64,000 bases of DNA from Cynocephalus volans (lineage: Eukaryota; Chordata; Mammalia; Dermoptera; Cynocephalidae), in contig NC_084461.1 of assembly GCF_027409185.1 (NCBI RefSeq), positions 233,322,999 to 233,386,998 of the forward strand, read 5' to 3'. Under the pieces are notes generated by a model, which saw nothing but the letters and a program-made list of their open reading frames with translations, did not search any database and was not told the DNA's origin. This document shows, piece after piece, positions 3,481-63,529 of this stretch; positions within the stretch are counted from its first letter, which is position 1; each line of letters starts with the position of its first letter. The position numbers and the translations under genes were made by a program.

Positions 3481-3484
3481 ATTA

Positions 3485-3620
3485 GCTCTGCATTGAGTAT
3501 CTTTCTTGTAGGCCAGAACTGGAGAACTCCAGGTGACAAAGAGACAAAAAGCAAGAGACCCCAACATGCACATTCTGCTCAGAGAGAACAAGAAGGTGAC
3601 AGTGACAGAGACATTTTGCT
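3485..3620 (-). repeat. L2-like fragment
   Basis: The stretch with cattgagtat, aggtgacaaagagacaaaaa and acattctgctcagagagaac follows the order of an L2 3' region in reverse orientation. It is old and divergent. Confidence 0.45.
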
Positions 3621-3834
3621 CCTTGGATAGCTTCCTCTGGAGGCAAAACCGTTGGGGAGAAATGAGGAAAATGTCCTCTGCAGAAAGTTGTCCAGGGCCA
3701 AGTACACAGCAAGGCCATATGTGCCCAAATGGCCCTTCCTGTTTCTTGTAAGGCAGGTCAGATGGAAAATGCTGGCACATGTCAGAGACGCTGGTTATCT
3801 TTGAGACTAAAGCTCTGGGGAGGGAAGAAAACTA

Positions 3835-4005
3835 GCATAGGTTTACTACCTGCTATATGTCACACACTTTTTAATATATTTTCTCATTTAATCCTGGCAA
3901 TGACCTCGTGAAGTAGGAATCATTATCCTGATTTACAAGTGAGGAAACTGACCCTCTGCAAGCTAATGTATCCTCCCTTGGTTTCCACAGCTATTGAGCA
4001 CCAAG
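3835..4005 (-). repeat. MIR SINE
   Basis: Contains ctcatttaatcctggcaa, a gtaggaatcattatcc segment and acaagtgaggaaactgac, the reverse of the MIR core (plus sense gtttcctca...). Confidence 0.8.
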
Positions 4006-5300
4006 CTGGATTCAACTCCCAGGCCAGATCATGGCAAGGCACACTCTCAGTCCTTATCTACAGATGCACAAAACACCTACTTCCCACAATTCCAGGTTGG
4101 TGGCTCTCTCAACCGGCTAAGGAGGGACTCACGGCGTCAGAGCCCAGAAGGGAAGAGGCACTGTACCTCTTTGCTGTGCCTTGCTCCAGTGAAGATGGGG
4201 CACATTTTCCAGGCTGGGGAGTGGGTAGAAGGCCACAATAATTTGCTGGTCAAAGGGGTCCATGTTGAGCAGAAAACATGAGAGGGGAACCAAGACGCTG
4301 CATGCCTTTTACAGATGGGGTGCTCCTCACATTACGGAATTCTCTGTTCCCTACCAATGGGTCTCAAATTTTCATTTCCATGTACTTTAAATGCATTTAA
4401 ACAAAGCGACGATTTAATGATTTCTGTGGGTTTTCTGGTATTTGTTTTGAGGTATTGTTCTATATTTTGTTTCTGTTTGACAGTGTTGAAGCATCAAAAT
4501 ATTGTGAAGCATTTCTCTGGCTCACTAATTGATACACTCCTGCCTAATTGCCTGCTGTTTCAGTTCTCCTTTGTTAAGTGACACAGGATTTCTGTTCTGT
4601 TGCTTCCAAAAAACAAATGGTACTGCTTGACTGCCCCTCCATCTGTGCCTCCCCCAGGATGACAGCACACGCCACACATCCCACAGATCACTGGTCCGGG
4701 GCAGAGGGTGGGGGCGGAGGCTGGGAGGCATGGTGGGGGAGGGGAACGAGCAGCCTGCCAGGGGGCTCCCCGTGTTCCTGAGCCTCCTTCCCCAGCACCT
4801 CTCCCTGACATAATCTCATAGACCTACTGACATTCTCAGCAGTCCCAGGTGCCTACTGTCTCAATTGCCAAAGGATTTTGGAACCTGGCGGAAACTATGG
4901 CCCCTGCCTTTGGCCATGGAGACACCACCTGTAGCCTTATTTACCCAGCTAGAAACTGCAGCCCTAAACCAACTGGCCTCACCCATGCCACAGAACTGCG
5001 CCCCACCAGTAGCTGGAGCACGTGAGATTCCCGCCCAACGCTCAGCATGCAGGTGCCTCCCAGCTTCCTACCTTCCCACCTCTAGCTTTAAACCTGCCCC
5101 TGGCCCCGTCAGCCCATCGTGGGTTGTAGGACCGACATTGTTCTTCCAGCCACACACACGGTGTGGTGTGTATGCTGGCCTTTGCCCCAGCCGATCCTGT
5201 CTGGCCCTAACCCAGGGCTTGTCCAAGAAGCCCAGGTTTACCCAGGTCCCAGGACAAGAAGGCAAACCTTAGTAGCCCATGGCAACACTAGAACTTCGAA

Positions 5301-5304
<4 letters not shown>
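4006..5304. other. No gene or recognisable repeat
   Basis: Mixed-composition sequence with no convincing exon. Open frames up to 135 codons exist, but they overlap on opposite strands and lack domain motifs. Confidence 0.45.
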
Positions 5305-5344
<40 letters not shown>

Positions 5345-5364
5345 ACCCACCCACCCACCCACCC
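5305..5364 (+). repeat. (AC)n-(ACCC)n microsatellite
   Basis: About 18 AC dinucleotides run directly into six ACCC units. Confidence 0.97.
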
Positions 5365-6332
5365 TAGGGTCAAGAGCCTTTCCTCCAAGTTCAGGGAACT
5401 TCTCCTCTGATATTAAGTCCCCCTCAGGGACTGGGAGATGGAGGATTTCGTCAACTTCCTGGCCAGGATCACCGACTCCAAGCACCCTCCCAGTGACGGG
5501 GAAATGGGACACCCACTGAGTGTCTAAGGTCCAGGCCTTTCCAGCTGGCCTCATCCCTCTGCCTTGTCTCAGGAGTAGAGCACTCTGAAAGCTGATGGAA
5601 TTCGCCTGTAACACGACTGTCCCAGTCGTAAGCAACCACCCTTGCCTGCTGGTCACCTCACCGCCACATCTCAGGTCCAGGCAACAGACAACAGCGGGAA
5701 GCACCAGACTGAGCACCTGCCGATTTTTTGATGTCAGAGCCACCTCCGCACAGGAAGATACTGCCTCTCCCCAGAAGTTGCCCTGAGAACTGGGGCTGCA
5801 CTGGAAACTGTGTCTCCCCTGAGCATCCCCTTCTCCATTCTCTTCCTGTTAGGAATGGGAATTAGGGGTGTAGACACATTTTTCTGAGCACACTTCTGCC
5901 CTTTTCCTGTACCCTGGGCAAAACCAGAGGTTGGCTGGGAGCCAATATTGTGGCCCTGGCCTCCTGTGCTATAGAGGAGAAAACACTGAGGCCCAGCGAG
6001 AGGGTAGTGGGGTCCAAGGCCGCAGTGTGAGCCAATGACAGAGCTGGGACCAGAACCCAGGAGCCAGACTTTTAACCTGTTGCTGTGCTCATTCCAGACA
6101 CCTATTTCTGCCCCAGAAGAAGACCTCAGCATCCTGATATTCCTCTATGCGTGTAGAAATGGAGGACGTTAGCTGGTAGACCTGGCTTATCAGCAGTACC
6201 TGGGGAAAGGGTGAGGGGTTGGGTTGCCGGGAGGGGCACTCTGATACACCTGCGACAAAGTACCCATTCACCAAACGTGGAATCAAAAACTCATTGACTG
6301 ACTAATGACTAATGGGGCATATATCTATTGCA

Positions 6333-6373: not shown

Positions 6374-7798
6374 TTAGCTTAAAAACCTTTTGATGCCAAT
6401 GTGGGAGAGATTGTTGTTTCCCCTGATCAGACCCCATGTAGAGGGCTGCATTCATTTTAAGAGGAAAACTGACAGACTAGAGCACTCCCAAAGAAAAGCA
6501 ACCGAGAAGTCAAGCTGACTCAAAGTACTAATGTGAGGGATTGTGTTTAAAAGCCCAGGAGAAGTTTATTTTACAGAAGAAAAGACTAAATGCACATTAT
6601 ATCTGAACTCAGAGAGCTAAAAAATAATGTGCAAAGGAGAACAGAATTATTAAGGGTCATTTGAGAGAGCAGAGCTGGATTCCACAGAGAGAGATAAAAG
6701 AGCAACATTTTAACCACTGGTGCTCTTTAAATTGGAAGACTACTTAGTGAAGTAGTGAGTTTCCCATCACTTCAGGTGTCCAAGCAGAGATGGGAGACAC
6801 CCGAGGACTTGCTGAGTATGCTCTAGGAGAATTTCAGACAGCAGAGATGGGTCTGAATGCGTTCAAGTGGATTCTGCAATCTGATAAACTCTAAATTCCC
6901 TGTGCTGAAGTTCAGAGTGAAGGGGAAAGAGGGAAGGAAGAGGAGGGGGTGTCAGAACCCAACGACCTCCCAGGAGATTGCGTCATAGGAGGTGAAAGTG
7001 TACTCAGCAGTCTGTGTACCTGTGACACTAGAATCCTGACTTCTTGGGATCCTTCCTATATTAGTCATGAGTCCTTGGTTGCACATTATAGAAGATCATG
7101 TATTTTCAGACGAAATCCAGAAGGGTTTATTATAAGAACACGGAGTGTCTCATGAAAAGTGGAAAACTGCTGAGACTTTCTCCGTCTCTCACATCTCTGC
7201 CCCTCCCTGAACATCTATCTGTTTTTTATCTGCAAACCACTTTATTGGACTCTCCAGAGTTTTAAGCTCATGAGTTTAGAATTTATTCTGCAGGACAATT
7301 GGTTTCTCAAATTTGCTTGAAGCTAATTATCAACTGGAGTTCTTATCAAAGAAATAGATTGCAGGGCCCCAAAGTAGACACACGGGTTTTTGATTTCTGG
7401 GGGAGAGCCCTGATGTTCCAGTGATCCTTGTCATAAGGGATGTTTGAAAAACTTTACAGAGGCAATCAGGAGTCATTGAAGGTTTGGGAGCAAGGTCACA
7501 AAATCAATACAGTCATGATTCCGGGAGATGAATTAAGTGGCTCTGTGGAAGCCAGACCACCAGCACCTAGATGTAAAAGTCTGTTCTAGTAGCTCCAGTG
7601 ATGGGTACACCTGAAATCCAAGTGCAGGGACAAGAGGAGAAGGCCCCTGCAGCCGTGTCTTCCCCGCATCACCCCACGTCCGTCATGGCCTCAGTTGAGA
7701 GAAATAGCACAGACATATGACACAGGGGGACACTTGGGTTCTCCCTCCCAGGGATCCAGAGCTGGAGACTGAATGACCCTCTGCTTCATCTCCCTCGT
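6373..7798. other. No gene or recognisable repeat
   Basis: AT-rich, non-repetitive by eye. No splice-framed exon, promoter or RNA gene is apparent. It forms the left flank of the provirus that begins at 7799. Confidence 0.45.
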
Positions 7799-8018
7799 TG
7801 TTGGGAAAATAGAATAATTTAATCAGGCCCCCTCGCCTGCGCATCTGGTTGGATGGAGTGCGGGGCTGTGTGTGGGTGGAGTTCATGTGCATGTGCCGTG
7901 CCACGACTTGGCTGATCTGCCTCGGGCAGCTGCCACGTGCACCGCCACGCTCTCTGACCTATGGCTCCAAGGACCTAGCCCGACTGGCAGGATTACGGAC
8001 AGATAAAAGAGTGCCACA
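7799..8018 (+). repeat. 5' LTR of the ERV, internally deleted
   Basis: Starts tgttgggaaaatagaat and ends ataaaagagtgccaca, matching the two ends of the 3' LTR at 13031-13397. It is only 220 bp against 367 bp. The missing part lies between 'ggctccaaggacct' and 'actggcaggatta', where the 3' copy has about 145 extra bases. The LTR therefore lost most of its middle after insertion. Confidence 0.85.
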
Positions 8019-8020
8019 AT

Positions 8021-8040
8021 TGGCGTAGTCTGCGACAGGA
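8021..8040 (+). promoter_or_regulatory. Primer-binding site, tRNA-Ser-like
   Basis: Two bases after the LTR comes tggcgtagtc, complementary to the 3' end of tRNA-Ser(AGA) plus CCA, then tgcgacaggattc, which resembles the continuing tRNA complement (ggcaggattc) with a small insertion. Position and the leading TGG fit a retroviral primer site. The tRNA assignment is from memory of tRNA sequences. Confidence 0.6.
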
Positions 8041-8540
8041 TTCTGAGCAGGTACAGGAGCCAAAAGCCCTTGGAAGAAGGAGGAAATGTGGCTACTTTTG
8101 AATATGCTCTGCCCCTCAACCTTCCTATTGACCGGGATCTGGTTGCTGCTCACTGTACTGCAAGGCAGCACAGACCAGGCACTACAACGCAAAACACCTC
8201 GGGAGAGGGAGGATATGTGGCTGTCCTTGAGCATGTGGTGCCCAGTGGCCACTGTTCGGCTGACTGGAGCCTGGCTACTGCTAACTATGCTGCAAACTGC
8301 TGGAAGCACGGATAAACGTCCTGGAGGATGACATGCAGCGACAGGCCACTCCTGCCTCTCACACCAGGGAAGATGAACAACCCAATGGTGAGTTCGGGGA
8401 AACCGCGCATCTCCAGGCACAACCTGTTTTGCACGAGAAATTGAGACACAAGCAGCCTATGGGACCAGATGGACGATCCACGGGTGACCCAGTTAACCAC
8501 CTATGTTGTGTATACCCGGGTTGAACTAGTTGACTTGGGG
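8041..8540 (+). pseudogene. ERV leader / gag N-terminal region with duplicated hydrophobic segment
   Basis: Between the primer site and the recognisable gag remnant lie two in-frame copies of a unit of about 129 bp (43 codons), with ATG codons at 8086 and 8215. Each copy encodes a hydrophobic stretch with a WLLLT motif, followed by a short polar tail. The copies are clearly related but diverged. The open frame spans 8086-8331. This could be a leader peptide or the start of gag. I do not recognise a family. Confidence 0.5.
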
Positions 8541-9370
8541 AGACAGTTCAGGCAGAAACATAGGGAGACCCTGGCTTCTTAGCTGTTGCGGTTATGGGAC
8601 CTAGGGGTGGATAGTGTAATGTGCTCTGGTGGGGAGATGGAGAAGTTGGCCTCCATCACCATGCACCCGTCCCTGAGGCAGCGGCTGCAGAATAGCCGCA
8701 GATATGCACAAGAGCGAGGCAATCACTCCTTGGTGGACTGGGTAAATGCAGCTGCCCAAACCATGTGGATAAATGCTAGAGAAATGCCCAAGATTGTTAG
8801 TAAATGGCAAACATATGCTGAGTTAGTACAAATAATTAGGGAGCTGGGGATGTAGCAGTCCATGTTTAATCTGAACACTGGACGATGGCCTGGACGATGA
8901 AAACTTTACAGGCAGCATGAGAGACATAGTGCTGCAGAATGTCCCGTCAATGTCCTTTGGATCACTGAATGGCCATACTGGCCCCATACATTGGTCCTCC
9001 CATATATGAGGTAATGACCATGGTAGCCAGCTTGGGTGAAGTAGAGGATAACAGACAAGCAAAAGGGGTCTGACAGGTGGCTAAGACCAAACCCCAAAGG
9101 AATGCTCAGGACTTTATCCTGAGAGGACTGAGCAAGACTAGCCATAAGCAGATATGGCTTGACTTGCTTGCAGCAGGGGTTGATTAAAAAAAAAAAAATT
9201 ACCATCAGCCAAATACGGTCAGTCCTGTTTGCTTTGTGGCAGCAATTGCACCCCAAACAGCATTTTGCCAAATGTCCAGAGACAGGTAGCAAGGTACGCT
9301 CAGTGGATTTAAAAGATTTTTTGGTTGCTCCCAAGGAGGTGGATGAACTGTTCCATTTCAATTAGGGAGC
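8541..9370 (+). pseudogene. gag remnant of the ERV
   Basis: An open stretch at 8586-8855 (89 codons) begins with a LWDLG motif and contains a WVNAAAQTMW helix-like segment, which resembles capsid sequence of ERV-L-type gag proteins. A second open stretch at about 9159-9365 contains LFALWQQLHPKQ and probably represents the C-terminal gag end. The frames are separated by stops, and an A(12) run near 9187 breaks the frame. No zinc-knuckle is evident. In a live element gag would form the virion core; here it is dead. Confidence 0.6.
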
Positions 9371-9439
9371 AAGCCAAGGTGCTCATCTTTTGGAGGCAGG
9401 CAAAGACCGGAGGCCTCATGTTGAATGGCAATATATTGG

Positions 9440-9748
9440 TTGAGGACAAATGTGTAGCATGTTTTAGCACTGGTGGATACAGGTGCAGAATGTAGTCTGA
9501 TATATGGCAATCCAGATAAGTTTCCAGGGGCCACAGTTCATATAGATGGCTATGGAGAAAATATGACTGAGGTCAAAGCTGTGTTATTACCACTGAGCAT
9601 AGGAAGATTACCTCCTTGTGTATATACTGTATATATATCCCCCTTAGCTGAATACATCTTAGGTATGGATGTACTTTATGGTTTGCACCTGCAAACCACA
9701 GTTGAAGAGTTTCAGCTGCAAATATGGACAGTAAAGCCTGTGTTATGA
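9440..9748 (+). pseudogene. Retroviral aspartic protease remnant
   Basis: The frame contains the active-site motif LVDTGAECSLI (about 9468-9500) followed by a glycine-rich flap-like region, and ends with the ILGMD motif typical of retropepsins. The open part running from the ATG at 9473 is 91 codons and ends at a stop at 9748, just before the RT domain. The active-site DTG is intact, but the surrounding polyprotein is broken. It lies directly upstream of RT, the normal pro-pol order. Confidence 0.8.
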
Positions 9749-10927
9749 GGATATGCTAAACATGACCCACGGGTGTTATACAAGCCACGATGTGTAGTTA
9801 ATGTAAAGCAGTATCACCTACCACGAGGACATGCAGAGATAAGTGCCACTATATTAGAATTACAGAAAGCTGGCATTATTTGTCCAGCTCATAGCCCATT
9901 TAATGCTCTGGTATGGCCAGTGAAAAAGCCTGATGGTACCTGGAGAATGACTATAGATTATCGAGAACTGAACAAAGTAGTGCCTCCTTTGTATGCAGCT
10001 GTAACTTCAGTTCACAACTTGATGGATAAGCTGACCACTCAGCTGGGAACTTATCATCATGTACTAGACCTTGCAAATGCTTTTTTCTCTATTCCAATCT
10101 TGGCTGATAGCCAAGATCAGTTCACTTTCACATGGGAAGGAAGACAGTGGACCTTTCAAGTATTGCCCCAAGGTTATCTGCATAGCCCAACCATCTGTCA
10201 TGGTTTGGTGGCTAGGGACCTAGCTAAGTAGACTAGTCCCAGCACAGTTACAATGTTTCACTACATTGATGATGTGTTACTAACCTCTAGTTCTCTTGCA
10301 GATTTAACCCAGGCAGCTCCAATGCTGCTAAGTCATTTGGAACAATGTGGGTGAGCCATGAACACAGCCAAAGTGCAAGGACCTGGGCTGTCAGTCAAAT
10401 TCCTAGGAGTGATCTGGTCGGGTAAGATGAGGGTCATCCCAGAAGCTATTATAGATAAGATACAGGCATACCCTCAACCCACAACTGTAGCTAAGCTACA
10501 GGCATATTTGGGACTTTGGGGGTATTGGAGAGCTTTTGTACTCCATATGGCCCAAATGGCACACCCACTGTATGCATTAACAAAGAAAGGAGCCCACTGG
10601 AATTGGACTGAGGAAGCAGAACAAGATTACCAGGCTACAAAAAGGGCAATACAGCAAGTACAAGCTTTACAAGTGGCCAACCCTACTAAGCTGTTTGAGT
10701 TAGACATACATATAACCCAGGAGGGGTTAGGATGGGGTTTGTGGCAGAGACAAGACCAATTCTGCACACCTATAGGATTCTGGTCTCAGCTCTGCAAGGG
10801 CACTGAAGTGCATTATACCCTAATAGAAAAGCAGTTAACAGCTGTATATTCTGCCTTGATAGCCACTGAAGCTATCACAAGGACTGCCAAAGTCCTAATA
10901 AGGACAACATACCCCATAATAGGTTAG
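9749..10927 (+). pseudogene. Reverse transcriptase remnant
   Basis: The first open part (9773-10231) contains LPRGHAEI, LVWPVKKPDGTWRMTIDYRELN and LANAFFSIP, and reaches the LPQGY motif. A stop at 10229-10231 precedes the catalytic YIDD box (about 10260-10275). A further stop near 10353 separates the thumb/connection part (10358-10927), which contains VKFLGV and a GFWSQ segment. Motif order and the FxxLPQGYxxSP pattern fit ERV-L/class III pol. At least two in-frame stops make it non-functional. Confidence 0.85.
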
Positions 10928-11560
10928 CTGCACACATGGGCAACCAACCCTAAAATGGGTGTAGCTCAGACTCCCACTTTGTCTAAATAAGGAGCATATA
11001 TAGAACAAAGGAGCACTGTGTCAATGAATCCTCTTTCCAAAGAGTTGCAAACTGTGCTGGGCCCAGCAGAGTTTGTGGAGGAAACTTTGACACAAACCTT
11101 ACCCATGGTGATGGAGGCTACACCTTTCCATGAGGGAAAGGGACCTATCACAGAGCAAGCTTGGTATACAGATGACTCTAGCATGGGACCCTCAGCATCA
11201 TGGACAGCTGTTTCTGTCCAGCCCTCAATAGATATAATGTGGTATGAAAATGGCACAGGGCAAAGCAGTCAATGCGCTGAATTGAGAGCAGTATGGATGG
11301 TGATAAAAAATGAGCCTGTGCCTTTAACCATCTGTACTGACAACTGGGCTGTGTACAAAGGTTTAACCCTTTGGATTTCTACTTGGAAGTATCAGTGGTG
11401 GATGATAGGCCACCATCCCCTGTGGGGACAAGCCATGTAGCAAGAGTTATGGGAATTGGGGCATGAGAAAGAAGTAACTCTTTTCCATGTCCCAGGACAC
11501 TTCCCCTTAGCCAGTCCAGGAAATGATGAAGCTGATGCCTTGGCTAAGGTAAGATGGCTG
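10928..11560 (+). pseudogene. RNase H remnant
   Basis: The open part 11018-11440 contains the YTDDSS motif (first catalytic Asp region), a CAELRAV motif with the catalytic Glu, and a TDNWAVYKGL motif. The continuation at 11456 carries the NDEADALAK motif that closes RNase H domains. A stop at about 11438 and further breaks upstream disrupt it. It sits between RT and integrase as in retroviral pol. Confidence 0.8.
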
Positions 11561-12190
11561 GAGAGAGCCCCAGCTACTGATGTAGCCCAGTGGTTACATC
11601 AACGAATGCAGCATGCTGGCAGCAAAACCATGTGGATGGTGGCTCAAAGATGGGCCCTGCCTATAAAATGGGAAGATGTAGTGAACGTCTGTCGTGCTTG
11701 TCCAGTGTGTGCTCAAGAGAGTACATACCCCTGGCAGGTGCCCCATACAGATGGGCAAATAACTTGAGGAAGGGTGCCCCTGACTCGATGGCAGGTGGAC
11801 TTTGTCAGACCACTGCCAAGGTCAGAGAATTTCAGATACATCTTCACAGCTGTTGATATGGCTACTAGTCTTGTTTATACGGCCTTGTAAGTCTCCAGAC
11901 CAGGTAAACACCGTGAAGGCATTGAATAGCCTTACAGCTGTAGTCATAGAGTGATAATGGATCCCACTTTACTGGACATGGGGTTCAGAAGTGGGCCTCC
12001 CAGTTGCCCATTCAGTGGAAGTTACATGTACCATATCATCCCCATGCAGCAGGAATGATTGAGTGGTACTATGGCCTTTTAAAAAAGGGACTAAGGCTAT
12101 CTGCCCAAGCCCCATCCCTGAAGGGGTGGACATGGTAGTTATGGCTGACAGTCAGAATTCTAAATGAGAGACCCCACAAGGGCGGGCCCT
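11561..12190 (+). pseudogene. Integrase remnant
   Basis: A degraded zinc-binding region ends in CRACPVCAQ (about 11690-11715). It is followed by the core with RWQVDFVRPLP (about 11790), a region equivalent to SDNGSHFTG (about 11950) and a PYHPHAAGMIEW-like segment with the catalytic Glu (about 12030-12070). These parts lie in different frames with several stops, so the integrase is dead. Confidence 0.75.
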
Positions 12191-13030
12191 CTCCAGTGGA
12201 AGCTCTGTGCATAGGGCTGCAGCACCTATACAGCTGCAAATCACTACTAAAGATAAGCTTTTGAAGCCAGGATATGGCAAGAACGGAAATATTTTCTTAC
12301 TGGCCCCGACCTGTTTGCAACAGGGACAAACAGTAAATGGGAATGGCCTTGGAGAATAGAAGCCCCCCATATATGCTGGGTAGGTTTAATAGTGCCTTGG
12401 GGAAAAGGATTAGAGGAAGGCTTGCAAGTTTCACCTTGGGTGACAAGTACCCGGCCTCCTCGAGTAAAGGTAACATGGCCTGGAACAGATAAGTGCTCTG
12501 TTCTAAAGGGCACATTTATATTATCATTATGGCCAATTATGAGTTCCCCTATACTGTTACATGTAGAACCTACAGATCCAACAGTGTTAGCAGATAAAGT
12601 ATGGTATCATTAAGCCAGGTAAGATACCCATTCCTGCAACCGTCCTTTTTCAGGATGGCAAACTGGCGTGTATCTTACCAGAGGGAGCGAGAACTTCCCC
12701 TATTGGTACCAATAACTTCTGTCTTTTCACCCATAGTGTTCTAGCTGCAGGCCCTGCACCAGAGTCGTGTGATTGGTGTGATCATCTACTGAATATGCAT
12801 GGAACTGCCCATCAGTACGACTGCAGGATTCCCATGGAGGATCACACCAGTGGTGACTACTAACTGGACGTATGTGGGTAATATTTAAAAGGACAGAACT
12901 ACAAGCTTTAAGGCATATTGAACAGACAACAGGCTTTCTAAATGTAAGGGTCATTTATCCTTGCTAAGGGAACATTGTGGAAGATTCTGAATGCGTAGAT
13001 TGTATGGTGAGGGACCCTGAAGGGGTGGAT
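12191..13030 (+). pseudogene. ERV 3' internal region, no env recognised
   Basis: Short open frames follow the integrase core. One at 12392-12613 (73 codons) contains RVKVTWPGTDKC and may be an integrase C-terminal domain or an accessory gene. ERV-L elements often carry a dUTPase here, but I cannot recognise one. No signal peptide, furin site or transmembrane segment of an envelope is seen. The last bases before the LTR (ccctgaaggggtggat) contain a purine-rich tract suitable for plus-strand priming. Confidence 0.45.
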
Positions 13031-13397
13031 TGTTGGGAAAATAGAATAATTTGATCAGGCCTCCTCGCCTGCCCATCCAGTTGGGGGTGGTGTGGCACAT
13101 TTCTTTGTAGATAAGTTGTGTGTGGGTGGAGTTCGTGCACATGACTTGGCTGGCATCTGCCTCGGGCAGCCGCTGCACACACGGCCATGCTCTCTGACCT
13201 ATGGCTCCAAGGACCTTTTTGCCAGTTACTTAGCTCATAGCCCTGCGTGTGAGGGGTCTGGGGACCCAGCCTGGCATGTGAAGGGTTTGTGACCCGGTCT
13301 GGACAACAGGCTTGAGGGGTCCTTGAGCTCCAGACCCAGCCTTAGCTCGAGAACTGGCCCAGTTGGCAGGATTAAGGGCAGATAAAAGAGCACTACA
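13031..13397 (+). repeat. 3' LTR of the ERV
   Basis: Starts tgttgggaaaatagaat and ends aaaagagcactaca (TG...CA). It is the fuller copy of this family in the window; related copies lie at 39038-39410 and, reversed, at 51086-51609. It contains the diagnostic block ggacccagcctggcatgtga. Confidence 0.85.
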
Positions 13398-20386: not shown

Positions 20387-21171
20387 GGCTGGACGTCAAG
20401 ATGGCGGAAGAGGAGCGCCGCCTGCCGCTTTTCCGCCACGAGTAGAAGCAGCCTGAGGCCCGCGCCAGATGCAGCTGTAGCAGAATCGGCACAAAGGAAC
20501 GGCTTCAAAAGGGTGTCTTTATCCTGCCGAGAACCGGGAATCTTCCCCCAACCCGCGCGCGTGAGACCCGCCGGTGCGCCACAGACGTGGAAACATGGAG
20601 GCCTGAGCCGGCGTGTGTCACCCCAGGCTGCAGCGGTGACCGTGGCTTCTGAACCCCCGCCCCCACCCGCCTATCCCTGGAGCTGGAAGTGAATCAACCC
20701 ACAGGTGAGACAGGGAGACGTCCAGTGGGAGAGGCAGAAGCTCCACAGAGACCACATGCCCTGCGGGGCCGCCACTGCATGATCCAACAGGTGTGCTTCA
20801 CTGCCGCCACCCGGCTTCATTCCCAGCCCAGCCCATTGCACACAGAGTGGGAGACGTCCAGCAGGGGAGGCGGGAACTCCACAGGGTCCACGCTGCTGCC
20901 GCGCAATCCAGCAGCAGGAAGGCTTCACCACCACCACCCGGCTCCATCCCAAGCCCGGCCTAGTGCGCACAGAACAGGGAGACATACTGCAGGGGAAGGG
21001 GAAGCTCTGCAGAGACCACATGCTCTGTGGTGCCTCGGCGCATCCCAGCAGCCCGGTCCAGAGCGCACGGAACAGGGAGTCACTGAGGTAGCAATACCAA
21101 ATTGGCAACCACAGAAACATCTTAGTCAGTCAATAGTGTCAAACCTGTGGACTGTGAAACCCCCTGCCACA
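20387..21171 (+). promoter_or_regulatory. L1 5' UTR with MaLR-like segment and tandem monomers
   Basis: The region is GC-rich. Positions 20417-20490 closely match MaLR LTR sequence at 36956-37028. After this come about three imperfect monomers, with matching ggagac(g/a)t cores at 20715, 20851 and 20979 and a shorter one at about 21077, giving periods near 136, 128 and 98 bp. The arrangement recalls monomeric L1 promoters of rodents. The region is open in the ORF1 frame from an ATG at 20689, so a 161-codon N-terminal extension is possible but probably accidental. Confidence 0.75.
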
Positions 21172-22152
21172 ATGAATAAACATCAAAGAAAAGATACCAG
21201 AAATATAAAAAATCAAGAAAGTACACCACCAAAACATAATAAATCTCAAGCTCTAGATCCTATAGAACAAGAAGCCCTTGAAATGACTGACAAGGAATTT
21301 CGAGTGATAATTCTAAGGAAACTGAATGACATACTAGAAAGCTCAGCTAGACATCATGATGAAATGAGGAAAAGTATACAGGATCTGAAAGAGGAAATGT
21401 ACAAGGAAATCAATGTCCTGAAAAAAAATGTAGCAGAACTTGCTGAACTGAAGAAGTTATTCAGCGAAATACAAAACACAATGGAGAGCTTAACCAACAG
21501 GCTTGTGGAAGCTGAAGAGAGAACCTCTGAACTTGAAGATGGGCTGTTTGAAATAACACAAGCAGACAAAAAAAAAGAAAAAAGAATCAAAGGCATTGAA
21601 GAAAATCTGAGAGAGATATCAGATAACCTTAAGCGCTCAAATATCCGAGTCATGGGTATTGCAGAAGGGGAGGAAAAAGGAGATTCCATTGAAAACATAG
21701 TCAACAAAATAGTGACAGAAAAATTCCCAGGTATAGGAAAAATTACAGATCTTCAGATCCAGGAAGCTCAACAATCTCCAAACGTATTCAACCCAAAAAG
21801 GTCTTCTCCAAGACATGTTATAGTCAAATTAGCAAAACTCAAAGACTAAGAGAGAATCTTAAAAGCTGCAAGAGAGAAGCGTCAAATCACCTATAAGGGA
21901 GCCCCAATCAGGCTAACATCAGACTTTTCATCACAAACCCTAAAAGCTAGAAAGGAATGGGATGATATATTCAAAATACTAAAAGACAAAGATTGCCATC
22001 CAAGAATACTCTACCCTGCAAGGCTATCCTTCCAAAATGAAGGGCAAATAGTATATTTCTCAGACAAACAAAAACTGTGGGAGTTCACCACCACACGACC
22101 ACCCTTACAAGAAATTCTCAAGGGAGTACTGGGTTTGATTCCTGAAAAATAA
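21172..22152 (+). pseudogene. L1 ORF1 (RNA-binding protein), one nonsense codon
   Basis: ORF1 encodes the trimeric RNA-binding chaperone of the L1 ribonucleoprotein. The start ATG at 21172 precedes a lysine-rich N-terminus, then a long heptad-containing coiled coil (about residues 50-155), then the RRM region. The frame stops at TAA 21847-21849. The same frame then continues without a shift for 100 more codons through a KERILKAAREK-like motif and a C-terminal domain to TAA at 22150-22152. One substitution therefore truncates a protein of normal length (about 326 residues) after about 225. Confidence 0.9.
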
Positions 22153-22342
22153 GTACCACTGCCATAAAAACCCAAGAAAAATCTAAACCCACTAGTATAA
22201 TAAAAATGGCATTCATGAAGAGAAAACAAACAAATAAAAAGGCTATCTACAACCTAAGGAACCAACAAACACAGAAACCAAACAGTAAATCAGAAAGCAA
22301 GGAACAAAAGACACCTAAGACAACCAAACAACAGTCAACAAA

Positions 22343-25300
22343 ATGCTAGGAATAAATCAACACTATTCAATAACAACTGTTAATGTAAAAGGCTTAAATT
22401 CCCCAATCAAAAGACACAGACTGGCTGACTGGATTAAAAAGGAGGACTAAACCATATGCTGCCTTCAAGAGACCCACCTCACCCATAAAGACTCACAAAG
22501 ACTAAGAGTGAAAGGATGGAAAAAGATTTACCATGCAAACAGAAAAGAAAAACGAGCTGGAGTAGTCATTCTTATATCTGACAAAGTAGACTTTAAACTA
22601 AAAACCATAAAAAGAGACAATGAGGGACACTACATAATGATAAAAGGACTGATCCATCAAGAAGACATAACAATTATAAGTATGTACACACCCAATGTTG
22701 GAGCAGCCAGATTTATAAAACAAACTCTATTAGACCTAAAGAAGGAAATAGACACTAATACCATAATAGCAGGGGACCTGAACACCCCACTGTCAATATT
22801 GGACAGATCATCTAGGCAAAGAATCAGCAGAGAAACACAAGATCTAAACAAGACTCTAGACCAACTGGACTTGGCAGATATCTGCAGAACATTCCACCCA
22901 ACAACCTCAGAATATTCCTTCTTCTCATCAGCACATGGATCATTCTCCAGGATAGATCACATAATAGGTCAAAAATCAAGTCTCAACAAATTCAAAAAAA
23001 TTGGAATTATCCCATGTATTTTCTCAGACCATAATGGATTAAAACTAGAAATTAGTAACAAACGAAAGTCTGGAAACTATACAAACACATGGAAATTAAA
23101 CAGCATTCTACTTAATGACATATGGGTCCAAGAAGAAATCAAGCAGGAAATCAAAAAATTTATTGAAACTAATGAAAATAATGATACATCATACCAAAAC
23201 CTGTGGGATACTGCAAAAGCAGTATTGAGGGGAAAATTTATTGCATTAAATGCTCACTTCAGAAGAATAGAAAGATGGCAAGTGAACAACCTAACACTTC
23301 ACCTTAAAGAACTAGAAAAACAAGAACAATCCAAACCTAAAGTTAGCAGACGGAAAGAAATCCTTAAGATCAGAGCAGAACTGAATGAAATTGAAACCCA
23401 AAAAACAATACAAAACATCAATTAATCAAAAAGTTGGTTTTTTGAAAAGATAAATAAAATTGACAAACCATTAGCATGGCTAACAAAAAAAAGAAGAGAG
23501 AAAATTCAAATAACAAAAATTAGAAATGAAAAAGGCGATATTACAACTGAGTCATCTGAAATACAAGGAATCATTTGAGACTACTATAAACAACTATACG
23601 CCAACAAGTTTGAAAATCTGGAGGAAATGGATAAATTTCTGGGCACACACAAGCTCCCAAAACTGAGCCATGAAGATGTAGAAAATCTGAACAGACCAAT
23701 AACAATAAAGGAGATTGAAGCTGTTATCAGAAGGCTCCCAACAAAGAAAAGCCCAGGACCAGATGGATTCACAGCAGAATTTTACCAAACATTCAAAGAG
23801 GAATTGACACCGATTCTTTACAAACTATTCCAAAAGATTGAAACAGACGCAAGTCTCCCGAACTCTTTCTATGAAGCAAACATCATCCTGATACCAAAAC
23901 CAGGTAAAGATATAACCAAAAAAGAAAACTACAGGCCAATATCCTTGATGAATATAGATGCAAAAATCCTCACTAACATACTAGCAAACAGAATACAGCA
24001 ACACATACGTAAAATTATTCACCATGATCAAGTGGGATTCATCCCAGGAATGCAAGGTTGGTTCAACATACGCAAATCAATAAATGTGATACACCATATT
24101 AATAAAGGCAAACACAAGGACCATATGATCATCTCTATAGATGCTGAAAAAGCATTTGATAAAGTTCAGCACTCATTCATGACAAAGACCCTCTATAAGT
24201 TAGGCATAGAGGGAAAGTATCTCAACATAATTAAAGCCATATATGACAAACCCACTGCCAATATCATCCTGAATGGGGAAAAGCTGAAAGCTTTTCCTTT
24301 AAGAACAGGAACTAGACAAGGATGCCCACTCTCACCACTCCTATTCAACATAGTGTTGGAAGTACTAGCCAGAGCAATCAGAGAAGAGAAGGAAATAAAG
24401 GGCATCCAGATTGGAAAAGATGAAGTCAAACTGTCCCTGTTTGCAGATGACATGATCCTATATATCGAACAGCCTAAAACCTCTACAAAAAAACTCTTGG
24501 AATTGATAAATGATTTCAGTACAGTAGCAGGATACAAAATCAACACAAAAAATCAGTAGCATTTCTATTCTCCAATAGTGAACATACAGAAAGAGAAATC
24601 AAGAAAGCCTGCCCATTTACAATAGCCACCAAAAAAATAAAATACTTAGGAATTGAGTTAACCAAGGATGTGAAAAATCTCTATAATGAGAACTACAAAC
24701 CACTGCTGAGAGAAATTAGAGAGAATACAAGAAGATGGAAAGATGTCCCATGCTCTTGGATTGGAAGAATCAACATAGTGAAAATGTCCATACTACTGAA
24801 AGTGATATACAAATTTAATGCAATCCCCATCAAAATTCCAAAGACATTTTTCTCAGAAATGGAAAGAACTATCCAGACATTTATATGGAATAACAAAAGA
24901 CCACGCATAGCCAAAGCAATGCTGAGCAAAAAAAATAAAGCTGGAGGCATAACACTACCTGACTTTAAACTATACAAAGCTATAATAACCAAAACAGTAT
25001 GGTACTGGCATAAAAACAGACACATTGATCAATGGAATAGATTAGAGAATCCAGAAATCATCCCACACACCTACAGCTATCTGATCTTTGACAAAGGCAC
25101 CAAGCCTATACACTGGGGAAGAGACTGCCTCTTTAGCAAATGGTGCTGGGAGAACTGGTTATCAATATGCAGGAGAATGAAACTAGACCCACACCTTTCA
25201 CCATACACTAAAGTCAACTCAAAATGGATTAAAGAATTAAATATAAACCCTGAAACAATAAAACTTCTTAAAGAAAACATAGGAGAGACACTTCAGGAAA

Positions 25301-26091
25301 TAGGACTGGACACAGACTTCATGAATACGACCCCAAAAGCACAGGCAACCAAAGGAAAAATAAACAAATGGGATTATATCAAACTAAAAAGCTTCTGCAC
25401 AGCAAAAGAAACAATTAACAGAGTTGAAAGACAACCAACAGAGTGGGAGAAAATATCTGCAAAATATACATCTGTCAAAGGATTAATATCCAGAATATAC
25501 AAGGAACTCAAACAACTTTACAAGAAAAAAACAAGCAACCCAATTAAAAAATGGGCAAAAGAGCTAAGTAGGCATTTCTCTAAGGAAGACATACAAATGG
25601 CCAGCAGACATATGAAAAAATGCTCAACATCACTCAGCATCCGGGAAATGCAAATCAAAACCACACTGAGATACCATCTCACCCCAGTTAGGATGGCTAA
25701 AATCCAAAAGACTCTGAACGATAAATGCTGGCGAGGTTGCGGAGAAAAAGGAACTCTCATACATTGTTGGTGGGACTGCAAAATGGTGCAGCCTCTATGG
25801 AAAATGGTATGGAGGTTCCTCAAACAATTGCAGATAGATCTACCATACGACCCAGCTATCCCACTGTTGGGAATATACCCAGAGGAATGGAAATCATCAA
25901 GTCGAAGGTATACCTGTTCCCCAGTGTTCATCACATCCCTCTTTACAATAGCCAAGAGTTGGAACCAGCCCAAACATCCATCATCGGATGAGTGGATACG
26001 GAAAATGTGGTACATCTACACAATGGAATACTACTCAGCTATAAAAAAAAGAATGAAATACTGCCATTTGCAACAACATAGAGGGACTTAG
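22343..26091 (+). pseudogene. L1 ORF2 (endonuclease / reverse transcriptase), four breaks
   Basis: ORF2 supplies nicking and target-primed reverse transcription. The ATG at 22343 opens an apurinic-type endonuclease domain, interrupted by TAA at 22448-22450. The SDH catalytic motif of the nuclease is at about 23023. More stops occur at 23423-23425 and 23576-23578. The reverse transcriptase follows, with its FADD box intact at 24440-24451. Near 24557-24562 the frame shifts (net change of two in phase). The open part from 24670 covers the thumb and the C-terminal cysteine-containing region ([16 protein letters not shown]) and ends at 26091, probably slightly early after a final frame change. Confidence 0.92.
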
Positions 26092-26421
26092 AGAGAATTA
26101 TATTAAGTGAAACAAGTCAGGCATAGAAAGAGAAATACCACGTTCTCACTTATTGGTGGGAGCTAAAAATAAGTAAATAAATTCATACACACACACACAC
26201 ACACAAACGGGGGGGGACACAACAACTACAATTCCTTGAAGTTGACACGACAAGCAAACAGAAAGGACATTGTTGGGAAGGAGGGGAGAGAGGGAGGAGG
26301 GAGGGAGGTTTTGGTAAAGGGCAACAATAATCAACCACAATGTATATCAACAAAATAAAATTAAGAAAAATAAAAATAAAAATATAAAATAAAATAAAAA
26401 CTCATTAGCAAACAGAAAAAA
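26092..26421 (+). other. L1 3' UTR, G-rich tract and double A-tail
   Basis: Holds a (CA)n tract (about 26187-26205), runs of G and ggga units at 26206-26308 (typical G-rich L1 3' UTR), and an AT/A-rich tail. The tail is interrupted by ctcattagcaaacag at 26401-26415 and ends in a second pure A run. Confidence 0.85.
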
Positions 26422-26439
26422 AAAAAGTATACTTAAATA

Positions 26440-28048: not shown

Positions 28049-28523
28049 AACATCATGTTGTACACTTCCGTGCTTCCCACACGTTTAGATCCAAGTCCCT
28101 CGTCTTGGGAAATGCAGGCCTTTGCGAGCTGGCCTTGCTGACTTCTGTAGACTCATCTACCTGGAAACTTCCTTTGTATCCCGCATTCCAGCCATTTCTC
28201 CAGATATGTCCTGCTTCTTCCTCTCTGCCAGGAAAGCCCATTCCTGCACCCAGTAGTGAACCCACGGATCCACGCCAGTGGGTGAAAAGCTTCAGCCTCC
28301 CTCAGGGATTTCCTGGTGATACAGGAGGGGCTCAGTTTACCTGGGCTCAGGTTACAGAGTAAGCCTCTGGATCACAAGCCATTCTCTCAGGTGTTAGGCC
28401 TCTCCTTTTGGTCCTCTCCTAGAGAAAAGTTCCCATTGCCAGTTAGATCTATTTTCAGCACCAACACAGAATGCCTGGCTTATGCAAACGCAGTGTCTGG
28501 GCAAGCTCAGTGGAGAAGGCTCG
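28049..28523 (+). repeat. L2-like fragment and unassigned flank
   Basis: 28050-28240 resembles an L2 3' part (cacttccgtgcttcccacac ... tctgccaggaaagccc). The rest up to 28523 has no recognised feature. Confidence 0.4.
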
Positions 28524-29665
28524 TGTAACCCTGGCGGTTGAACGGCCTTCCACTAGGGGTGCTAGAGAGCACAGAATGTTATTGAATGCGCCTGGTGCAC
28601 GGGATGGGATTTGACCAATGAACATCCTCCAAGAAGGGACCAACTGAGCACGTGCAAAACTATGTTACATAACAGGGAAGGAGAGAGCACAGAATGTTAT
28701 TGAATGCGCCTGGTGCACGGGATGGGATTTGACCAATGAACATCCTCCAAGAAGGGACCAACTGAGCACGTGCAAAACTATGTTACATAACAGGGAAGGA
28801 GAGAGCACAGAATGTTATTGAATGCGCCTGGTGCACGGGATGGGATTTGACCAATGAACATCCTCCAAGAAGAGACCAACTGAGCACGTGCAAAACTATG
28901 TTACATAACAGGGAAGGAGAGAGCACAGAATGTTATTGAATGCGCCTGGTGCACGGGATGGGATTTGACCAATGAACATCCTCCAAGAAGGGACCAACTG
29001 AGCACGTGCAAAACTATGTTACATAACAGGGAAGGAGAGAGCACAGAATGTTGTTGAATGCGCCTGGTGCACGGGATGGGATTTGACCAATGAACATCCT
29101 CCAAGAAGAGACCAACTGAGCACGTGCAAAACTATGTTACATAACAGGGAAGGAGAGAGCACAGAATGTCGTTGAATGCGCCTGGTGCTCGGGATGGGAT
29201 TTGACCAATGAACATCCTCCAAGGGACCAACTGAGCATGTGCAAAACTATGTTGCATAACAGGGAACCACCCCCTTCACTGAATATTCATTAGGTAGCAA
29301 GACTATGAAAGCCAAACTCCCGCAGAAGGCGGGGTTGTTGCTCACTTTCCTGGAGGCAGCCTGCATTTCCCTGTCTGAGATGCGTATAGTTTACTTAACG
29401 AACTTATTTTCAGCCAGCGGCTGCTCGTTCTCTTGAGCCCCTCTGCACTCTGTACTGAGCTTTAGGTATGTATTTCTGGTCATTTTGTTAGACTTGATGT
29501 CTGCACTGAACTTACTTGGTGTGGGCCCTGCTCGGTCTCTGGAGCTAGGCCGCACTCTCTCTGTGGAACCTGCATTTCTTATCTGTTACATTAAACCTGT
29601 TCTCACTTTTTGCTGTGACCCTGCCCTTGGATTCTTTCCTGTGGTGGGGTCAAGAACCTGGTGAG
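28524..29665 (+). repeat. LTR-like unit with internal minisatellite
   Basis: Starts tgtaaccctggc. An ATTAAA signal at 29590-29595 overlaps a gttaca that mirrors the tgtaac start. It is followed by cctgttctcactttttgctg and a tggggtcaagaacctggtga segment, which resemble the R-U5 part of a class I ERV LTR. The 118-bp array would then lie in U3. No clean target duplication or internal ERV sequence was found, and the right boundary is a guess. Confidence 0.5.
28565..29266 (+). repeat. Minisatellite, six copies of 118 bp
   Basis: Copies start with gagagcacagaatgt at 28565, 28683, 28801, 28919, 29037 and 29155, an exact 118-bp period. The last copy is shortened to about 112 bp. Divergence between the first five is only about 1-2 %. 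Variants are limited to attattg / ttgttg / tcgttg and aagggacc / aagagacc. Each unit contains a ccaatgaac box. Frames that repeat in this block are artefacts. Confidence 0.97.
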
Positions 29666-35687: not shown

Positions 35688-36155
35688 TGTTGGAGTGAGC
35701 AGGACTGAAGCCATGTTGGGACCTAAAGCTGCCTGGGCTGCAGAGCGGGGAGGGTTTTAAAAAGGGCAGTTGTTTTTTTCTTTTCTCTCCACTCTTTCTT
35801 CCCATCCCCTGACTTTCTTATCTCGCTTGCTAAATAGGAAAACAAGGCCAAAAAGCTAATTAGTACTTTGCAAAGCTTACAATTCTTTCTTTGAGACTTG
35901 TAGAGTTTTGAGAAATGATCAAGGCAAAATGACTTAAGCTGATCTTGGGCACCAGCCAAGTACACCGGGGCAAATCAAAATCTTTCAGGGTCCTGAGATA
36001 ATAGCGAATATGAGACCAGAAACCAGATGTGGCCTTGGCAAGACCTTGTACCTGACCCATAGAAATGGACCCCTCGTAGCTCACATCTCCTGCTCTCCTG
36101 CTTTTCACTTCCCACATTCCATTCCCTCAACCCTTCCTTTAAAAACCCCTCAGTA
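35688..36155 (+). repeat. LTR-like sequence, left part
   Basis: Starts near tgttggagtgagcagg and runs to ccctcaacccttcctttaaa, which resembles the TATA-proximal part of a mammalian class I LTR. It is interrupted at 36155 by the composite element and resumes at 37278, where AATGAATCTGCTTT-like and gggtttttatctttccctct sequence follows. Confidence 0.5.
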
Positions 36156-36179
36156 GGACTGGACCCCCACCCCGCCCAC

Positions 36180-36375
36180 AGCCAGGCACACTGCCAGTGT
36201 GCCTCAGGGCCCCACCCAAGGGCCTGGGGCATTGAGCCAGGGACTGGAGCCCCCCCAAAACCAGGCACACTGCCAGCACCTCAGGGCCATGCCTGGGGGC
36301 CCGGGGCATCGAGCCAGGGACCAGAACCCCCCCTACAACCAGGCACACCACCAGCACCAAGGAGCATGCCAAAAA
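36180..36375 (+). repeat. GC-rich tandem repeat, about 79-bp unit
   Basis: Units begin at ccaggcacactgccag (36182 and 36261) and at ccaggcacaccaccag (36339). Each runs through ctcagggcc, a ggggcat(t/c)gagccaggga core and a C-run. There are two full copies and one partial. It forms the 5' part of the composite element. Confidence 0.85.
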
Positions 36376-36702
36376 CATCACCTCCGTATGGGTGGCCCAC
36401 CACAGTAACCACGGCTGCCACAAATGTGGCTAGACATCACAAGCACCACGCAGATGGTCCACCAGCCACTGGAGTACATTGTCACAAGGAGAGTCACCAG
36501 CAGAGACCAAAGAAAAGAAGAGGACGTCTCTCTCCACAAATGCCATTCCAGAATGACAGAAGCATCTGCTCTATGATAATATTGGGGGACCTGAACACAC
36601 CTCTCAGCATTGGACAGACCATCTAGGCAACAGATCAACAAAGTAATCATTACTCTTTCAGAGGAAGAAATCTAGGATTATCAGTGGTGGGAGGGGGCAG
36701 GG

Positions 36703-37109
36703 TGATGGAGTTTGGATGTGTTGTCCCCTCCAAAACTCATGTGGAAATTTGATCCCCAGTGTGGCAGTGTTGGAAACTGATTGAGTCATGGGGGCGGATC
36801 CCTCACGAGTGGATTAATGCTCTCCCTGGGGGAGGGGAGATTAATGAGTGAGTTCTCGCTCAATTAGTTCCCACCAGAGCTGGTTGCTTAAAAAGACCCT
36901 CACACCTCCTCTTTCTCTCGCTTCCTCTCTCCATGTGATCTGCTTGTACCCACCAGCTGCCTGCCGCTTTCCACCATGAGTGGAAGCAGCCTGAGGACCA
37001 TGCCCGATGCAGCTGTCCCAGATTCGTAAGCCAAATAAACCTCTTTTCCTTATAAATTACCCAGTCTCAGGTATTTCTGTTACAGCAACACAAAACAGAC
37101 TAAAATACA
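36703..37109 (+). repeat. MaLR (MST-type) LTR inside the composite
   Basis: Begins tgatggagtttggatgtgtt and contains gagtcatgggggcggatcc, catgagtggaagcagcctga, an AATAAA within agccaaataaacctctttt, and aacacaaaacagactaaaat at the end. This is the pattern of MST/THE1-type LTRs. Caggg occurs on both sides (36698-36702 and 37108-37112), compatible with a 5-bp duplication if the LTR ends at 37107. Confidence 0.8.
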
Positions 37110-37277
37110 GGGAGAGGTGGATAGGGAGAGATTGGACAAGGGACTTAAAGAATAAGTACAATTTGTAACAATATATATATACTAGTAATGTTGATTTGAT
37201 CAACATATGTCAACATTGAATCCCCAAAATATGTATAATCAACTATGATTCAATAAATAAATATAAACCCCTCAGTA

Positions 37278-41762: not shown

Positions 41763-41777
41763 AGAATGTTACAGCTT

Positions 41778-41930
41778 TGGGCCGAGCCCGTGGCGCACTC
41801 GGTAGCGTGCTGCGCTGGCAGCGCGGCGACGCTCCCGCCGCGGGTTCGGATCCTATATAGGAATGGCCGGTGCACTCACTGGCTGAGTGCCGGTCACGAA
41901 AAAGACAAAAAAAAAAAAAAAAAAAAAAAA
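41778..41930 (+). mobile_element. tRNA-derived SINE, two-part (CYN-like), with A-tail
   Basis: An A box (gtggcgcactcgg) and B box (gggttcggatcc) form a tRNA-related 5' part. A second partial tRNA-like head (ggccggtgcactcactggct) follows, then a tail of about 24 A. The 15-bp duplication agaatgttacagctt (41763-41777, 41931-41945) is perfect, so the insertion is recent. This looks like a dimeric colugo-type SINE. Confidence 0.9.

Positions 41931-57854: not shown

Positions 57855-63529
<5,675 letters not shown>

Follow-up and report, generated by a model that had tools for sequence, protein, structure and literature searches.

Is the 1.1-kb unit at positions 36156 to 37264 of the window (the whole 64,000-nucleotide stretch of Cynocephalus volans DNA that was analyzed) a rearranged L1 of its own, or one copy of a family of composite repeats? 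A sequence-only reading had taken it for a composite retroelement mobilized by L1, and every module named there is present in the window copy, as follows.

36143..36155, plus strand: 5' target-site duplication AAACCCCTCAGTA, an L1-endonuclease-type site with CTTTAA immediately 5'
36156..36358, plus strand: GC-rich tandem array of ~77- to 79-bp units, about 2.5 of them remaining, which contains the 5' end of the copy
36359..36575, plus strand: module B, of unassigned origin, whose matches to the L1 of locus L042 and to the young L1 of the window do not go beyond controls
36576..36646, plus strand: ORF2 endonuclease remnant, which in the family majority has a 2-nt deletion relative to the window's L1
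36647..36704, plus strand: 5' part of an L1-type 3'UTR, G-rich
36705..37108, plus strand: solo LTR, presumably of MaLR type, a later insertion outside the family, with CAGGG on either side (36700-36704 and 37107-37111)
37109..37264, plus strand: remainder of the L1-type 3'UTR and the A-rich end
37265..37277, plus strand: 3' target-site duplication AAACCCCTCAGTA

The direct repeats around the copy (36143-36155 and 37265-37277) are 13 bp long and perfect, as had been reported for a duplication bounding a unit of about 1.1 kb, and have CTTTAA on the left; this flanking target duplication bears out entry as one piece by an L1-type route. The GC-rich tandem 5' region and the short ORF2-like piece are likewise real: the array extends over 36169-36358 (period 77, 2.4 copies, 79% matches), and the endonuclease-like piece at 36576-36646 matches 22763-22835 at 78% (E 2e-10). 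Module B is ~217 bp long here (~210 bp in full-length copies), and the AT-rich 3' end contains AATAAA. The window copy is 5'-truncated, the cut lying inside the array. An Rfam search gave no match, and, as expected for mammalian DNA, viral contigs, GTDB contigs, phages and plasmids contain no match to the element.

The sequence-only reading had called for a genome search for copies that share the internal junctions but differ in their target duplications, and many were found. The genome searched comprises 2.81 Gb in 130 contigs. With positions 36156-36700 (545 nt) as the query, 53 matches were listed; 40 of 7,010 first-look candidates were scored, and all 40 were fetched. Besides the window's own, 39 places align at 83-86% across 484 or more of the 545 nt, and all 39 have the array, module B, the ORF2 piece, the G-rich stretch and the 3'UTR in that order, as do all eight further copies picked solely by the 30-base junction of B with ORF2; the absence of other copies with this module order, which had been named as speaking against a family, is thereby contradicted.

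Counts of short patterns, allowing at most three mismatches, give the scale of the family, with the provision that they are matching places and not intact copies. The junction of B with the ORF2 endonuclease piece occurs at 6,601 places (3,287 + 3,314; none for the reversed-pattern control on both strands), that of ORF2 with the 3'UTR at 7,648 (3,813 + 3,835), and that of the 5'UTR with the array at 3,748 (1,817 + 1,931); a stretch inside B occurs at 1,930 + 2,032 places and a 3'UTR stretch at 1,459 + 1,557, the reversed-pattern control being zero for each of these as well. Among 100 B places listed, an exact junction match stands in the list at a fitting distance for 14 and an exact 3'UTR match for 5, a weak check of distances that rests on exact matches among those listed. 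Three 3'UTR places were fetched, of which two are family copies and the third (L071) consists of the last 159 nt alone, with neither family modules nor ORF2 upstream. The window element belongs to a real repeat family with thousands of matching places. As a separate observation, 11 exact matches of the family 3'UTR pattern among those listed, all on the plus strand, fall in a 0.8-Mb span near the beginning of contig C3 (G000:C3:153539-945394), a cluster that is perhaps a subtelomeric duplication.

The 5' start is complete in 21 of the 40 loci, whose elements measure 1,463-1,828 bp (L024 and L027 being measured no further than the point where their 3'UTR is interrupted). Full-length copies consist of ~840 bp of L1 5'UTR, at least three GC-rich units of ~77 bp, the ~210-bp module B, the ORF2 scrap, the L1 3'UTR and an A-rich tail. 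In 24 of the 40 copies the ~840-bp 5'UTR module, whole or in part, stands ahead of the array, and 16 have none of it. The proposal of a composite family holds with regard to its many copies; it was incomplete in that the family is ~1.6 kb long, the L1 5'UTR has been lost from the window copy, and two sister arrangements exist.

Target duplications of ~11-23 bp flank many copies. In 11 of the 21 full-length copies the duplication score exceeds the 99th percentile of 420 swapped-flank controls, and in the other 10 no duplication does so; 9 of the 19 remaining copies, the window copy among them, have duplication scores of 11-17 (no control). For copies with target duplications of their own, spread by duplication rather than by retrotransposition is ruled out. 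The anchor of the array unit matches three times in 10 of the full-length copies, four times in 6, five times in 3, six times in one and seven times in one, at spacings of mostly 75-84; spacings of 133-160 in some copies indicate that this count misses some units. The module of L1 5'UTR contains a forward ORF of 135 aa (majority positions 282-686), a length reached by 7 of 300 shuffles.

Nineteen full copies (leaving out L024 and L027) diverge from their majority by 7.7-10.1%, with a mean pairwise divergence of 14.1%. Outside CpG-type dinucleotides the corrected distance is 0.065 at about 956 sites, which, assuming 2-2.5e-9 changes per site and year, gives the family an age of about 26-33 million years; the dated copies are those closest to the window copy and so form a nonrandom sample.

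We consider it highly probable that the element is a 5'-truncated copy, later entered by a solo LTR, of a noncoding, L1-mobilized composite family or superfamily. The L1 5'UTR of full-length members would act as promoter, and RNA from a source copy would be inserted by L1 proteins supplied in trans, as the target duplications and shared ends suggest. Such insertion would yield the thousands of matching places, the target duplications and the frequent 5' truncation that are observed; the solo LTR came into the 3'UTR of the window copy afterwards. Counting against this reading are the 135-aa ORF and the 10 full-length copies whose flanks gave no duplication above the control percentile.

Where the parts come from can be followed in other L1 copies. 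Locus L042 contains an old L1 on its minus strand, with ORF1-like sequence at 1530-2148 and ORF2 at 3111-5924; positions 14-183 of the family majority align to its 5'UTR at 76% and positions 167-840 at 70%. The L1 of L057 has the same order, with the 5'UTR at 653-1650, ORF1-like sequence from 1669 (28% at the protein level) and ORF2 pieces from 2304. Because this 5'UTR leads into ORF1 and ORF2 in both, the family starts with a real L1 5'UTR, which it would appear to leave roughly 150 nt before ORF1 (the ORF1 start being extrapolated). The first bases, ..TTCCAGTCAAGATGGCGGAATAG, include an 18-base block that recurs at nearly the same position where the window's young L1 begins (94%, E 0.21), and the start motif CAAGATGGCGGAA is common to both. 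These related L1 copies, L042 and L057, are only 69-77% alike to the family, and its direct parent L1 was not found among the sampled loci.

At the other extremity, a stretch behind the ORF2 C terminus in L041 (5132-5724) aligns to majority positions 1406-1604 at 70-76%; this identifies the family's end as an L1 3'UTR, in agreement with the earlier description of an L1-3'UTR-like end. The ORF2 piece of the majority matches the young L1 at 82% over 74 nt (E 3e-14) and, lacking two nucleotides, is unreadable in frame. A search for ORF1 in the six-frame pieces of the majority gave nothing convincing, the sole match being 6 residues long (E 0.17).

The family has two related arrangements. Adjoining the family copy in L018 is an element that has the same 5'UTR (81.5%) and ~130 bp more of L1 5'UTR, followed by a second GC-rich array and an end unlike the family's; it has a duplication of its own (13 of 15 bases, by eye) and aligns along L042 to position 1455. 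A 30-base pattern taken from its continuing 5'UTR occurs at 664 + 651 places. Among 20 such loci, 19 enter the second array (including L051, which is the L018 locus, and L067, the long form described below) and the remaining one is L057's L1, in a sample that is biased against L1 by the derivation of the pattern from the sister element. Duplications scoring at least 11 (no control) were seen at 8 of the 17 sister loci with both ends found, and in L056 the second array gives way to a stretch resembling an L1 3'UTR (70%).

The long form, L067, reads through the second array and then the family's array, module B, the ORF2 piece and the L1 3'UTR. The whole lies between the two copies of one perfect 16-bp duplication, GAAAAAGTAGTTTAGG, and none is seen at the inner border, which rules out a nested insertion, as the inner part is unflanked. 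The sequence of this inner border occurs at 305 places (147 + 158); it is exact only in L067, the rest of those listed having one or two mismatches. At some of the listed places (for example, C1:60347892, 60348392 and 60348738) the continuing 5'UTR lies upstream and the junction of ORF2 with the 3'UTR downstream, at distances that fit by eye. Together, L067 and the inner-border places with fitting neighbors indicate that the long form exists as a family.

Set against the long form, the sister form stops at an A-rich spot whose long-form sequence is GAATGTAAAAACAG, and the window's family is without the end of the 5'UTR and without the second array. When the two arrays were compared with each other, the score was 45, against a maximum of 32.5 in 50 shuffles, and was reached by 2 of 300 first-order controls, a similarity that is no more than suggestive. 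The three arrangements, one of which was found complete between the two copies of one target duplication, illustrate how composites of this kind are assembled and shortened, their modules being variously joined, deleted or truncated. As for the order of events, long-form RNA would have been cut short or joined differently, through early polyadenylation, splicing or template switching.

This leaves the source of the array and of module B, on which the strongest competing explanation turns: the family could be a plain, internally deleted L1, in which the array and B are 5'UTR of an L1 subfamily outside the sample and ORF1 and most of ORF2 have been lost. The array does stand directly behind a true L1 5'UTR, and L1 5'UTRs can contain GC-rich repeats, as in the young L1 (about 20387-26430), whose 5'UTR has a 61-nt stretch three times, at spacings of 136 and 128 nt. 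Aligned locally to this L1, B also finds its best match in the 5'UTR (20879-21072), although 23 of 300 first-order controls score as high; for the array, 229 of 300 controls reach the best match, and derivation of either module from the young L1 was rejected, the matches not going beyond controls. Nor does the L1 of L042 match the array or B beyond shuffles, and in L042 and L057 the homologous 5'UTR runs into ORF1 with neither module in between. Two further observations weigh against deletion: the continuing 5'UTR enters the second array at nearly all of the loci sampled with the biased pattern above, and in the long form a different array stands at the 5'UTR end. All 48 copies examined were found by similarity to the window's family or by its junction, so that an L1 with the array and B before ORF1 would have escaped notice. 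On balance we judge a plain deleted L1 to be rather unlikely; the array and B may be foreign, or they may be part of an L1 5'UTR outside the sample.

Under another explanation, of a kind known from SpIREs, the short form arose when long-form RNA was spliced from the 5'UTR to the array and was then amplified. The short form departs from the 5'UTR with TTAGTTCC(A/G)G; the corresponding sequence in L1 and in the sister form is TTCCAGTGCAG, which puts a GT near the border. Inspection by eye reveals no good splice donor or acceptor, however, and the exact joint lies within the repetitive array, where template switching fits equally; we therefore regard such an origin as unlikely.

The ~404-bp LTR raised the possibility of an SVA-like composite in which it serves as a functional module, since it is in sense orientation and enclosed by the outer 13-bp repeats. 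The description of an MST-type LTR was right in that an LTR is present at about 36705-37108, which we take to be of MST/MaLR type; it was wrong in treating this LTR as a captured module, as in all 47 other copies (39 + 8) no LTR separates the G-rich stretch from the 3'UTR. Of the 48 copies examined, the window copy alone has the LTR, which was inserted later within its 3'UTR. The exact left junction occurs at one place in the genome, the window. Allowing at most three mismatches there are 530 places, and among 100 listed, two have one mismatch and most read GGGGCAGAA before the LTR, a different context; four of those listed were fetched (the two with one mismatch and two G-rich ones), and none has family sequence before the LTR. 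Similar LTRs occur in L031 (78%) and L050 (86%), that of L050 being elsewhere in the element, in the 5'UTR, and in the opposite orientation. With 47 of 47 copies free of the LTR and an unrelated context at the four LTR places fetched, the LTR is ruled out as a family module, and its functional role in a composite is very improbable. The CAGGG on both sides (GAGGG in the family majority) is, as a 5-base match in a G-rich setting, weak on its own; if it is the duplication of the LTR, the LTR is without its last two bases. Something else interrupts the 3'UTR in L024, L025, L027 and L050.

The remaining alternative, a private, once-rearranged L1 without relatives, accords with our finding no second copy of the composite within the 64-kb window and can be set aside as next to impossible, since thousands of places carry the same junctions.

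Beyond the composite family itself, we tentatively propose, while leaning slightly against it, an independent second origin of SVA-like composites outside hominoids, in which an L1 5'UTR would have been combined with foreign GC-rich arrays (one or two) and with 3' ends that can be exchanged. If this is true, a GC-rich tandem array would be a recurrent aid to L1 copying in trans, and not an accident of ape SVA.

Several other features of the window were recorded. The 5'UTR of the young L1 contains, at 20417-20505, an LTR piece of MaLR type (~66-90 nt) that matches 36956-37045 at 78% (E 7e-14) and the LTR in L031 with a score of 41 (maximum of 19.5 in 200 shuffles); it looks as if this L1 has acquired part of an LTR in its promoter region. 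At 7798-13095 lie the remains of an endogenous retrovirus, with broken ORFs (9773-11767) that are pol-like by eye between repeated stretches 5.2 kb apart. A tandem array with 118-bp spacing lies at 28446-29335 (six 300-nt matches that overlap, with 98-100% likeness among the inner ones), a tRNA-derived SINE, presumably of the colugo CYN type, lies between AGAATGTTACAGCTT repeats at 41774-41925, and an ORF on the minus strand at 61479-61805 reads like an SH2 domain exon, which we take to be SH2D4-like.

Among known systems, the hominoid VNTR composites SVA, LAVA, PVA and FVA are the closest in logic: they too are noncoding, combine several unrelated modules with a GC-rich array of variable number, exist as related forms that are common in one part and different in another, and have L1-type target duplications and an A-rich tail. 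The colugo family has such duplications and such a tail, and its array varies (3-7 anchor matches per copy in the 21 full-length copies). The parts differ: where SVA starts with a (CCCTCT)n hexamer and an Alu-like part, the 5' module here is an L1 5'UTR, the first part of 21 of 40 copies being alignable to the L042 and L057 5'UTRs; where SVA ends in a HERV-K-derived SINE-R, the 3' module here is an L1 3'UTR (or, in the sister form, a unique end); and the host is not a hominoid. The family is therefore SVA-like in logic and not a member of SVA, and the comparison of its modular build with SVA, in logic and not in sequence, was apt, an unrelated GC-rich tandem module standing beside L1 pieces. 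PMC4432496, whose topic is the role of the array in the retrotransposition of the ape elements, describes VNTR composites as specific to hominoid primates.

Three kinds of L1-related element also invite comparison. (i) HAL1 (half-L1), described in PMC5753468 as an L1 derivative encoding ORF1p, is likewise a nonautonomous L1 derivative amplified as a family; the present family differs in having no convincing ORF1 match and in containing an array and a module B without a match in the sampled L1s. (ii) SpIREs are internally deleted L1 RNAs inserted by L1, as the present elements may also be; they are characterized in PMC5860796 as being in general evolutionary dead ends whose promoter activity is reduced, whereas the family described here has thousands of matching places and has kept a long 5'UTR. 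(iii) Autonomous L1s, represented by L042, L057 and the young L1, share with the family a homologous 5'UTR (L042 and L057) and an L1-type 3'UTR, as in L041, but in the family neither ORF1 nor ORF2 is usable, all that is left being a short ORF2 piece with a frameshift. Swaps of L1 5'UTRs are offered as speculation in PMC13174262. No paper on such a family was among those listed by our literature searches; it may stand in Repbase or Dfam under an L1 name. A large family with the same logic, other parts and another mammal as host would be a natural replicate of the hominoid composites, and it would let one ask which parts a gene-less RNA needs for using L1.
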